DNA of 64,000 bases from Chloroflexota bacterium (GTDB lineage: Bacteria > Chloroflexota > Anaerolineae > Anaerolineales > Villigracilaceae): assembly GCA_016195815.1 (NCBI GenBank), contig JACPYX010000007.1, positions 248,001 to 312,000 of the forward strand. The letters run 5' to 3'. The notes beneath the pieces are model-generated. The model did not search any database. It worked only from the letters and a program-made list of their open reading frames with translations, and was not told where the DNA came from. Position 1 is the stretch's first letter. Each line of letters opens with the position of its first letter. The translations under genes were made by a program, and so were the position numbers. This document shows positions 10,530 through 13,659 of this stretch, one piece after another.

Positions 10530-10592
10530 AACGGATTCGCGGATTCCAAAACGGACTCTTTCACGGATTCACGGATTCCAAAACGGATTGAG
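10530..10592. repeat. Repeat copy R1 (CGGATTCACGGATTCC-AAAACGGACTC family) between purF and purD
   Basis: Two nearly identical units, ACGGATTCGCGGATTCCAAA and ACGGATTCACGGATTCCAAA, are separated by ACGGACTCTTTC and followed by ACGGATTGAGG. The last bases supply the GAGGAAG ribosome site of purD. Same family as the elements at 11847-11928, 12531-12620 and 13620-13659. Confidence 0.75.
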
Positions 10593-10601
10593 GAAGTGCT
10601 G

Positions 10602-11858
10602 ATGAATGTTTTGATAATCGGATCGGGCGGACGGGAACATGCGATTGCTTGGAAAGTAGCTCAGTCACCGCGTTTGACGAAACTTTATATTGCGCCTGGC
10701 AATGCAGGGACGGCGGATTGCGGTGAAAATGTTTTGCTTGAAGTGACTAACCACGCAGACGTTGTTCGCTTTTGTAAAAAGAAGCAGGTCGATCTGGTGT
10801 TGGTTGGCCCAGAAATCCCATTAGCGGATGGTTTGGCAGATTCATTGTCAGCGGGCGGAATCCGTTGTTTTGGGCCGAAGCAGGCAGCGGCACAGATCGA
10901 AGCGTCGAAAGTTTTTGCAAAGGATTTTATGACTCGGCATCATATTCCAACAGCGCGTTATGCCGCGTTTGATAAAGTCGCCGATGCAATTGCATATCTC
11001 GAAAGAACGGATTATTCAATTGTGATCAAGGCTTCTGGTTTGGCGGCGGGCAAAGGCGTGATGCTGCCAGAGACTCTTGATGAAGCAAGGTCAACCCTTG
11101 AATCTATTTTGGTTAATAGAACATTTGGCGAGGCCGGAAATGAAGCGATCATCGAGGAACGCTTGAGCGGACAAGAGGTCTCATTGATGGCGTTTACGGA
11201 TGGCGAGTCAATTGTGCCGATGCTTCCCGCGCAGGATCATAAGCGTTTGCTGGATGGCGACAACGGACCGAACACGGGCGGGATGGGTGCGTATGCTCCC
11301 GCTCCGATCTTCACTGCGGACTTAATGAACGAGGCGGTTGAATCTGTTTTGAAACCCGCCGTGAACGGATTACGACTTGAAGGGACTCCGTTTGTGGGCG
11401 TGTTGTATGCGGGGTTAATGCTTACTCAAAACGGCATTCGCGCGTTGGAGTTCAACTGTCGCTTCGGTGACCCGGAGACGCAGGCGGTGCTTCCGCTGCT
11501 TGAAACCGATTTGCTTGATATTGCTGAAGCCTGCGTGAATGGTACGCTTCAAGATGTGAATATCCGCTGGAAGGATGGCGCGGCGGTTTGCGTGGTGCTG
11601 GCAAGCAAGGGCTATCCTGAGAAAGCGGAAGTCGGAAAGCAGATTATTCTTTCTCCGCTTGATGAAAACATAATTTGTTTTCACGCAGGGACGACAAAAG
11701 AAAATGATAAGGTTGTTACTACTGGCGGGCGTGTGCTTGGCGTCACTGCCTGGGCTGAGACTCTGGCTGAATCGGTTGAGTTTGCTTATGATGCGGTTAA
11801 TAAAATCCGCTTTGACGGAATGCAGTATAGAAAAGATGTTGCTAAAAACGGACTCTAA
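10602..11858 (+). CDS. purD: Phosphoribosylamine-glycine ligase (GAR synthetase)
   Basis: ATP-grasp enzyme joining phosphoribosylamine and glycine; 418 residues. Signatures: MNVLIIGSGGREHAIAWK at the N-terminus, SGLAAGKGVMLP in the ATP-binding loop, GEAGNEAIIEERLSGQEVS, and NCRFGDPETQAVLPLL for metal binding. I prefer ATG 10602 over the GTG at 10596, because GAGGAAG (10590-10596) sits 5-6 nt before 10602. The last codons and the stop (AAAAACGGACTCTAA) fall within a dispersed repeat, so the natural C-terminus has probably been replaced by repeat-encoded residues (KNGL). Confidence 0.95.
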   Translation: MNVLIIGSGGREHAIAWKVAQSPRLTKLYIAPGNAGTADCGENVLLEVTNHADVVRFCKKKQVDLVLVGPEIPLADGLADSLSAGGIRCFGPKQAAAQIEASKVFAKDFMTRHHIPTARYAAFDKVADAIAYLERTDYSIVIKASGLAAGKGVMLPETLDEARSTLESILVNRTFGEAGNEAIIEERLSGQEVSLMAFTDGESIVPMLPAQDHKRLLDGDNGPNTGGMGAYAPAPIFTADLMNEAVESVLKPAVNGLRLEGTPFVGVLYAGLMLTQNGIRALEFNCRFGDPETQAVLPLLETDLLDIAEACVNGTLQDVNIRWKDGAAVCVVLASKGYPEKAEVGKQIILSPLDENIICFHAGTTKENDKVVTTGGRVLGVTAWAETLAESVEFAYDAVNKIRFDGMQYRKDVAKNGL

Positions 11859-11928
11859 AATGGACTCTTTCGCGGATTCGCGGATGGTTGAAAACGGACT
11901 CTTTCACGGATTCACGGATTGAGAACGG
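11847..11928. repeat. Repeat copy R2 spanning the purD stop codon and the purD-purM spacer
   Basis: Units ACGGACTCTAAAATGGACTC, CGCGGATTCGCGGATGG, AACGGACTCTTTCACGGATT and CACGGATTGAGAACGGATG follow one another. Same orientation as R1. It supplies the TAA stop of purD (11856-11858). Confidence 0.75.
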
Positions 11929-11961: not shown

Positions 11962-13620
11962 ATGTCAAAGAATAAATCTGGCCTGGTTAAGACGCCGCTT
12001 GATGATTTGACTTATAAAGTCAACGGGTTGGCGATGCAGGTGCAGCGTGAACTAAAGTCAGGGCATAAAGAAGTGTTTTATCAACGCCGACTTAAAGAAC
12101 TGTGTCTTGAGGCTGGTCTAGAAGTTGACATGGAGAAGCGGGTCGAAGTTTGGATTGGCGACTCAATGGTCGGTTATCTCTATCTTGATCTATGGGTGGA
12201 GCAGAGCCTTGTTGTTGAATGCAAGACCTTAAATCACGACTTGACCAATGATGAACTCAGCCAAACACTTGTCTATTTGGCTGCAACGGGCGCACCTGTG
12301 GGAATGCTATATAACTTTGGACGTACAAGCCTTGAATATCGCCGCATCCTGCGACCGACAAATATGCAGGAATGGCAGAAATATCTTTATCGTGTGGTTT
12401 GGACTCTGCCCGGCACAACACTCCCGCTTGACGGCTCCCCAGAGTTTACCCAGCCCATCCGTTTCTCCATTGTCAGCCCCCTTGCCAATCAACTAGCAGT
12501 TCTGGAATCCAAAGAAGTGTCCACTTCCCAATCCGTTGGTATCCGTGAATCCGCGAAAGAGTCCGTTTTAGAATCCACTCCCATCCGTGAATCCGTGAAA
12601 GAGTCCGTTTTAGAGTCCGCTTATGAAAACTCAGGCGTCTCCATCGCCGCAGGGAACCAATCCGTTGATTTAATGAAAGACGCAGTTCGTTCCACATATA
12701 CCCCATCCGTTCTCGCAGGCATCGGCTCCTTTGGCGGGCTGTATGACGCCTCTGTTTTGAAAGTATTTAATAACCCTGTTCTTGTTGCATCCACAGATGG
12801 GGTCGGCACAAAAGTGAAACTGGCAGCACAGGCGGGGCGCTATCGCTCCATTGGACACGACATCGTAAATCATTGTATCAATGACATCCTCGTGCAAGGC
12901 GCGCGTCCGTTATTTTTTATGGACTACTTTGCCACTTCCAAACTGACTCCCGAAGTGTCAGCTGAAGTTGTTACAGGAATAGCCGAGGCATGCAAGGAAT
13001 CAGGCATGGCGCTACTTGGCGGCGAGACTGCTGAAATGCCCGGCGTATATCAGCCAAATGAATTTGATGTTGCTGGAACAATCGTCGGTGTGGTCGAACG
13101 GGATAACATCCTGCCGCGCAAGAATCTAAAAGCAGGCGATGTGCTTATTGGGCTCACTTCATCGGGTCCGCACACGAACGGCTACTCTCTTATTCGTAAG
13201 ATTTTTGCCGACACACCGCTCGATACAATTCTTCCCGAGCTCGATATTTCCCTTGCCGACGCTTTGCTTGCTTCGCATCGTTCCTATTATTCTGTCATCT
13301 ATTCCGTGCTGTCTGAAGTCAAAGCGCTTGCTCATTTAACCGGCGGCGGATTTATCGAGAACATCCCGCGCATTATGCCAGATGATCTCGATGCAGTTAT
13401 TCGCCTCGACGCATGGACGCCTCCGCCGCTCTGGAAACGGATTCAGTCCGAAGGGCATATCGCCACCGGCGAAATGTACCGCGTCTTCAACATGGGCATT
13501 GGCATGGTCATCATCGTGGATAAACGCAAAGCCGCCGAAGTCCAAAAACTTATCTCCGAACCGACTTTTATAATTGGCGAACTCGTCAAAGGCAAAAAGA
13601 AAGTTCGTTTGGTTTCCTGA
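11962..13620 (+). CDS. purM: GxxExxY nuclease-like domain fused to phosphoribosylformylglycinamidine cyclo-ligase (AIR synthetase)
   Basis: The PurM part (about residues 221-552) closes FGAM to AIR with ATP. It has YENSGVSIAAGNQSV, GIGSFGGLYD, VASTDGVGTKVKLAA, VNDILVQGA-like NHCINDILVQGARP, LLGGETAEMPGVY and TSSGPHTNGYSL, and is full length. Residues about 14-150 are a GxxExxY-family domain: G34-x-x-E37-x-x-Y40 followed by the PD-(D/E)xK-like D76 and VECKTL (E86, K88). Residues about 190-220, with repeated IRES(A/V)KESVLES, are translated from a dispersed repeat in the opposite orientation to R1/R2. No in-frame start codon lies just before the PurM domain, so a single 552-residue protein is the simplest reading. 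ATG 11962 has GGAGAG upstream. Whether the nuclease-like domain is active is unknown. Confidence 0.9.
   Translation: MSKNKSGLVKTPLDDLTYKVNGLAMQVQRELKSGHKEVFYQRRLKELCLEAGLEVDMEKRVEVWIGDSMVGYLYLDLWVEQSLVVECKTLNHDLTNDELSQTLVYLAATGAPVGMLYNFGRTSLEYRRILRPTNMQEWQKYLYRVVWTLPGTTLPLDGSPEFTQPIRFSIVSPLANQLAVLESKEVSTSQSVGIRESAKESVLESTPIRESVKESVLESAYENSGVSIAAGNQSVDLMKDAVRSTYTPSVLAGIGSFGGLYDASVLKVFNNPVLVASTDGVGTKVKLAAQAGRYRSIGHDIVNHCINDILVQGARPLFFMDYFATSKLTPEVSAEVVTGIAEACKESGMALLGGETAEMPGVYQPNEFDVAGTIVGVVERDNILPRKNLKAGDVLIGLTSSGPHTNGYSLIRKIFADTPLDTILPELDISLADALLASHRSYYSVIYSVLSEVKALAHLTGGGFIENIPRIMPDDLDAVIRLDAWTPPPLWKRIQSEGHIATGEMYRVFNMGIGMVIIVDKRKAAEVQKLISEPTFIIGELVKGKKKVRLVS
12531..12620. repeat. Repeat copy R3, translated as the interdomain linker of the purM fusion
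   Basis: ATCCGTGAATCCGCGAAAGA and ATCCGTGAATCCGTGAAAGA, each followed by GTCCGTTTTAGA, are the reverse complement of the R1/R2 units. They lie in frame between the GxxExxY and PurM domains. Confidence 0.8.
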
Positions 13621-13659
13621 TCCGTTCTCGTCCGTGAATCCGTTATAGAGTCCGTTGAA
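13620..13659. repeat. Repeat copy R4 between purM and the AICAR transformylase gene
   Basis: ATCCGTTCTCGTCCGTGAAT followed by CCGTTATAGAGTCCGTTG fills the whole 50-bp spacer and ends at the AAAGGAA ribosome site. Same orientation as R3. Confidence 0.7.

Follow-up and report, generated by a model that had tools for sequence, protein, structure and literature searches.

An in-frame GxxExxY-PurM fusion bounded by inverted word arrays in Anaerolineae: a candidate homing-like element

The window, i.e., the whole 64,000-nt stretch of a Chloroflexota contig that was analysed, carries a purine operon in which the gene after purD encodes more than PurM (Table 1). The frame at 11962-13620 is open over 552 codons, as the initial annotation had read it, and its ATG start is preceded by GGAGAG. 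It encodes a GxxExxY (PDDEXK_3) domain, then a repeat-encoded linker, and then a complete PurM. The N-terminal residues, which the initial annotation had proposed to compare with GxxExxY models, pass the cut-offs of two of them in profile searches: PF13366 matches residues 15-129 with an E-value of 2e-19 (70.5 bits, cut-off 22) and TIGR04256 (GxxExxY) matches with an E-value of 2e-21 (76.6 bits, cut-off 35). Likewise, TIGR00878 (purM) matches residues 220-543 with 352 bits against a cut-off of 236 and covers model positions 2-331 of 332. Judged by this profile, the PurM part is a complete equivalog-level domain, in agreement with the complete AIR synthetase reported earlier. A Pfam search of the frame returned PDDEXK_3, AIRS, and AIRS_C only, with no intein or other self-splicing domain, and the fused protein had no match in a search of defence models.

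Table 1. Features of the purD-purM region, with positions in the window
Feature	Position	Strand	Remarks
Solitary word copy in the purF/purD gap, oriented as the 5' arm	10552..10576	-	exact match
purD (GAR synthetase)	10596..11858	+	ORF; last codons (KNGL*) written in the 5' repeat arm
5' arm, words CACGGAT/CGCGGAT/ACGGACTC reading toward the GxxExxY gene	11846..11919	.	inverted repeats I1-I4
GxxExxY / PD-(D/E)XK nuclease-like domain, core residues 15-129 and conserved C-terminal extension to residue 172	11962..12477	+	PF13366, TIGR04256
Catalytic residues D76 (12187-12189), E86 (12217-12219), K88 (12223-12225)	12187..12225	+	invariant across alignments
3' arm = linker IRES(A/V)KESVLES, reverse-complement words ATCCGTG	12541..12622	+	in-frame GTG at 12595
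PurM (AIR synthetase) domain, residues 220-552, and stop codon	12619..13620	+	TIGR00878; PF00586, PF02769
Solitary word copy in the gap 3' of purM, oriented as the 3' arm	13630..13654	+	3 mismatches

GxxExxY proteins are otherwise known in free-standing form, at about 130 residues, as the initial annotation also stated. The domain in the window differs from this family in that it is fused in frame to PurM and falls in a divergent subfamily whose members carry a C-terminal extension, but it keeps the family's signature and core. G34, E37, Y40, D76, E86, and K88 are invariant in alignments of the GxxExxY domain, and so is Q101. The initial annotation had placed G34/E37/Y40 and E86-C87-K88 correctly; D76 is added here and completes a nuclease triad with E86 and K88. 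In other words, both the G-x-x-E-x-x-Y signature and the D/ExK/QxxxY core are retained in the fused domain, and the triad is kept in 25 fused proteins and in viral free-standing relatives.

What kind of nuclease does the domain resemble? The AF2 model of the full-length fusion was poor (pLDDT 57.7), and therefore the model of the N-terminal domain alone (pLDDT 86.7) was used. Its best structural match was Cas4 SSO0001 (Z 9.6, 3.8 A over 117 residues), and RecB-family, lambda-exonuclease-type, and Holliday-junction-resolvase nucleases stood lower on the list of matches. No solved structure matched the sequence of the fused domain significantly, and a Cas4 profile matched, weakly (E-value of 6e-4), a free-standing relative only. 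Compared with Cas4, whose fold the model resembles, the GxxExxY domain is shorter and lies in a purine operon, not adjoining CRISPR genes. The model and the retained residues point to a putative active nuclease. A literature search found no function reported for the GxxExxY family.

The linker between the two domains is translated from a dispersed repeat, as had been claimed: the 25-mer linker repeat occurs in six copies in the window, where 0 are expected, and in 13 copies in the whole genome. The initial annotation was also right that repeats flank the gene; what it missed is that they are opposed in orientation, forming the two inverted arms of a cassette, and that such arms are general to free-standing GxxExxY genes. 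The repeats at 11846-11919 and 12541-12622 face each other and share a stretch of 29 nt with 100% complementarity, and the inverted repeats I1-I4 of the 5' arm (I1 starting at 11846) are 90-100% complementary to the linker. The arm score of the 5' arm against the linker was 49, compared with 9-13 in controls, and this arm overwrites the final codons of purD. Matching arms in the 5' gap (from purD to the GxxExxY start) and in the linker were present in 27 of 30 fused loci and in 0 of 30 in each of three controls. For free-standing genes, the two 200-bp flanks of 107 GxxExxY genes of the same family with full flanks were compared, and a score of at least 16 was taken as an inverted repeat. Inverted flanking arms were found at 88 of the 107 genes (82%, p 6e-29), as opposed to 1% of windows placed 500 bp further out and 8% of flank pairs drawn from different loci. 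Outside the family but within the phylum, 13 of 21 GxxExxY loci reached the same score. Only one of eight GxxExxY loci on plasmids of other phyla (a Bacteroides locus) reached the strict score, so the arm rule holds for Chloroflexota and is only hinted at elsewhere.

In the arms, 7-nt words of the form CRCNRAK follow one another in arrays at a spacing of 8-10 nt; they are fivefold enriched in one orientation only and co-vary with the protein. The dominant word followed protein relatedness (Mantel rho 0.345, maximum of 1000 permutations 0.088) and was common to the nearest relative in 53% versus 7%. Mean word cosine was 0.05 at <40% protein identity and 0.58 at 70-80%. Across species, the arms of a locus matched those of other loci with a score of 25.0 when the protein type was the same and 12.8 when it was another type. 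The arms stay type-matched although synonymous sites of the GxxExxY gene are often near saturation, and because the 5' arm is mostly noncoding, the constraint there acts on the DNA. Concerted evolution of the two arms of each locus was not supported, since own arms match no better than same-type arms elsewhere. A strict spaced-word pattern search of the window's own genome gave no match. An array of the same words lies between two genes at G000:C4:20246-20449 (L008, L011, L012) with no adjoining GxxExxY gene and is either an orphan arm or a relic. The genome of the window also carries two decayed GxxExxY copies, at G000:C4:113004-113120 (L003) and G000:C11:105121-105234 (L004), and each adjoins differently worded arms.

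A nuclease gene that has co-evolved with its cognate dispersed repeats is known from REPtrons, in which TnpA-REP (RAYT) is paired with REP palindromes (PMC8266576). The GxxExxY arm words likewise co-vary with their protein. However, TnpA-REP proteins are HuH enzymes, whereas GxxExxY is PD-(D/E)XK by profile (PDDEXK_3), and the GxxExxY repeats are arrays of spaced 7-nt words. Inverted repeats at both ends, as found at most free-standing and fused loci, are also a feature of transposons. The arms could be the terminal inverted repeats of a DNA transposon-like unit that is moved by the nuclease, perhaps with host factors, and the PurM fusion would then be one insertion that was later inherited and recombined. 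Several copies per genome, varied operon neighbours, and decayed copies adjoining repeat arms in the window's genome fit such a unit. This explanation is nevertheless improbable, as neither a transposase domain nor a target duplication was seen, the arms are not fixed ends but arrays whose length varies, and every PurM fusion traces to a single origin.

The initial annotation had proposed looking for the same fusion in related Anaerolineae, and it was found in at least 31 distinct genomes of several families. When public genome contigs were scanned for the fused domain, 25 loci were recovered, all in Chloroflexota assemblies and 25 of 25 fused to PurM. A class-wide search extended this by five fused loci, with two more families represented, and also recovered free-standing members of the subfamily. 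Most of the genomes were assembled from metagenomes, and several consist of contig fragments. The former could raise the suspicion that misassembly or a sequencing error joined two genes, but this has next to no probability: an artefact is excluded because at least 31 independent assemblies show this in-frame join, with linkers that differ among them. The fused domains form one clade (support 100/99) that is sister to free-standing members of the same subfamily, which is most simply explained by a single fusion event. In its narrow form, the initial reading, namely a lineage-specific insertion or accidental fusion of recent date, would account for repeats dispersed in the genome and for a plainly repeat-derived linker. 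It is refuted by the conserved distribution, with one origin and occurrence in several families, and is very improbable. The part of the initial reading that stands is a mobile-like gene flanked by repeats and fused in frame to an essential purine gene; the one-off insertion gives way to a single origin followed by purifying selection and later horizontal exchange at the same site.

PurM was found in four states among 120 genomes of this family: fused to GxxExxY (GxxExxY-PurM), fused to PurD (PurD-PurM), fused to both (PurD-GxxExxY-PurM, in G033), and alone. The fused, PurD-PurM, and free states are interleaved in the PurM tree, and the fused clade is nested among unfused members. In relatives with an empty site, the purD stop overlaps the purM start (ATGA). 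No target-site duplication was seen in a comparison of filled with empty junctions, which have diverged. PurD-PurM is a single continuous protein of 764-815 aa in 12 family genomes (L022, L023, L033, L035, L039, L044-L047, L183, L184, L189), with its domains ordered as in ADE5,7, the bifunctional enzyme of fungi. PurD-GxxExxY-PurM in G033 (L191/L067) is a single frame of 1081 aa in which a long word-repeat linker (ATDLATDGETDKRMM) lies ahead of GxxExxY. About two thirds of the 120 genomes had no clear PurM, with weak matches of about 30% identity to other proteins, and this may reflect purine auxotrophy or a divergent enzyme.

Is PurM made only as part of the fusion? The initial annotation had argued that it must be, as no start codon sits just before the PurM part. 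There is indeed no ATG before this part of the frame, but an in-frame GTG lies at 12595-12597 (V212, within the repeat), 13 codons ahead of the GVSI motif. In 8 of 26 fusions, the 40 codons preceding PurM contain no ATG, GTG, or TTG. The argument is therefore safe for those eight, whereas the GTG makes synthesis as a fusion only likely for the frame in the window.

GxxExxY has also been joined to another protein. In three genomes of another family (L242, L243, L244), it is in frame with a DUF4213/DUF364 protein through a linker of the same kind as the PurM linker, made of SVASVPPSASGSV repeats. A downstream gene has thus probably been captured in frame through the 3' arm on at least two occasions. 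The DUF4213/DUF364 partner is a putative heavy-metal chelation protein. Five other candidates (L089, L106, L217, L219, L222) were rejected as further fusions, as they were judged by eye to be stop-free translations of upstream DNA with no recognisable protein. Free-standing GxxExxY genes are present in several copies per genome, in many unrelated places; on a Sphingomonas plasmid (L204), the gene lies between fabD and fabG of a fatty-acid operon. A phage origin was not supported, with no match in 50,697 phage records and three loci in viral contigs.

Does the cassette share the history of the genes around it? Trees of GxxExxY, purD, purM, and purH were compared in the same 22 operons. In AU tests, the GxxExxY alignment lost 608-816 lnL when forced on the purD, purM, or purH tree. 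The flanking genes lost 464-797 lnL on the GxxExxY tree and 70-215 on each other's trees, the latter loss indicating that background recombination or tree error is present. The GxxExxY domain is short for tree building, and flank slices cut to its length lost 145-338 lnL on the GxxExxY tree versus 5-155 on flank trees. Further evidence comes from pairs of loci. Between L066 and L057, identity is mostly 80-93% along the operon and falls to 43-67% over the cassette; L050 and L061 are 84-94% identical outside the cassette and 53-64% inside. The breakpoints fall within the final codons of purD and the opening codons of PurM. Pairwise dN correlated at 0.85 between purD and purM and at 0.15 between cassette and purM. 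In L049, L050, and L056, purM dS is 0.54-0.64, while the cassette has a dS of at least 2.4 and a dN of 0.03-0.055; by these values, they are separate acquisitions of a nearly identical protein. The discordant GxxExxY tree, the drop in identity over the cassette, and the empty sites together indicate block exchange at a fixed operon site. In other words, the sequences place the cassette (5' array, nuclease, and linker array) as a block exchanged horizontally between species, with the flanking genes staying put. Synonymous divergence shows that the cassette is old, so that none of the transfers detected here was very recent.

By its dN/dS ratio, the GxxExxY domain is under strong purifying selection that is tighter than that on PurM (omega of about 0.02 versus 0.12, the dS values close to their cap being rough). 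A constraint exceeding that of PurM, the coexistence of divergent GxxExxY types in closely related hosts, and breakpoints that fall in homologous flanks would all be expected if the host used the GxxExxY part as a domesticated accessory domain (for regulation, DNA-state sensing, defence, or PurM stability), its types being swapped by ordinary homologous recombination under diversifying selection. This is the main rival explanation, and a possible one, yet on the whole unlikely: close relatives live without the GxxExxY part, free-standing relatives with the same arms occur in many unrelated places, the second fusion joins an unrelated protein, and the defence models did not match the fused protein.

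How could a nuclease gene persist in an essential enzyme? Inteins and intron-encoded homing endonucleases are nuclease genes that lie inside essential genes and have empty and filled alleles. Filled and empty alleles at one fixed site, with an insert that moves relative to the flanking DNA, are found here too. Unlike inteins, GxxExxY-PurM has no intein domain by Pfam and its insert is N-terminal, so splicing is not needed. A closer parallel comes from the WHO elements of yeasts, intein-like nucleases downstream of FBA1 that target this essential metabolic gene, replace its 3' end, and keep it functional without protein splicing, parts of one gene giving discordant trees (PMC7282813). The PurM cassette also sits at an essential metabolic gene, does without splicing, and gives discordant trees within one gene; it differs in that its PD-(D/E)XK domain is part of the enzyme and is accompanied by inverted word arrays. 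In its anatomy, i.e., nuclease, inverted arrays, a fixed site that is occupied or empty, and exchange bounded by the flanks, the cassette resembles homing elements and above all WHO. By the features tested, it is a member of neither the WHO homing elements nor the REPtrons.

On balance, the modelled fold, the sequence patterns, and the analogy to WHO make it somewhat probable that the cassette is a homing-like element, maintained by its in-frame fusion and independent of splicing. In this reading, a gene for a Cas4/RecB-like PD-(D/E)XK nuclease is flanked by two inverted arrays of a type-specific short word, and the whole forms a GxxExxY cassette. A cassette of one subfamily settled once at the purD/purM junction, where its 3' array came to be read through in frame as the PurM linker, and the block of 5' array, nuclease, and linker array has since been swapped among species, with occasional gain or loss. 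The nuclease would recognise either its own words or the purD/purM junction that lacks a cassette. Cutting and subsequent repair from the flanks in purD and purM would copy the cassette, which amounts to homing, and fusion to an essential enzyme would protect it from deletion. Among the points that count against homing, ordinary homologous recombination via purD and purM could account for the exchange, and a domain that benefits the host would be expected to show strong constraint as well.

GxxExxY proteins are common in these genomes, and the arrays, the covariation, and the block exchange give the family a testable hypothesis, namely that of a repeat-bounded homing-like nuclease. Literature searches covering the family, the repeat words, and comparable elements found no description of such a system. 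It can be proposed, more tentatively than homing at purM itself, that GxxExxY genes are the enzyme half of an undescribed class of mobile elements in several bacterial phyla, in which a Cas4/RecB-like nuclease would recognise inverted 7-nt arrays and spread in a homing-like manner, and would gain permanence when its 3' array is translated as a linker (to PurM and, independently, to DUF4213/DUF364). If the homing-like hypothesis is right, a selfish gene would have made itself secure by being translated as one protein with an essential enzyme, splicing playing no part, and a share of the short dispersed word repeats in these genomes would have an explanation.
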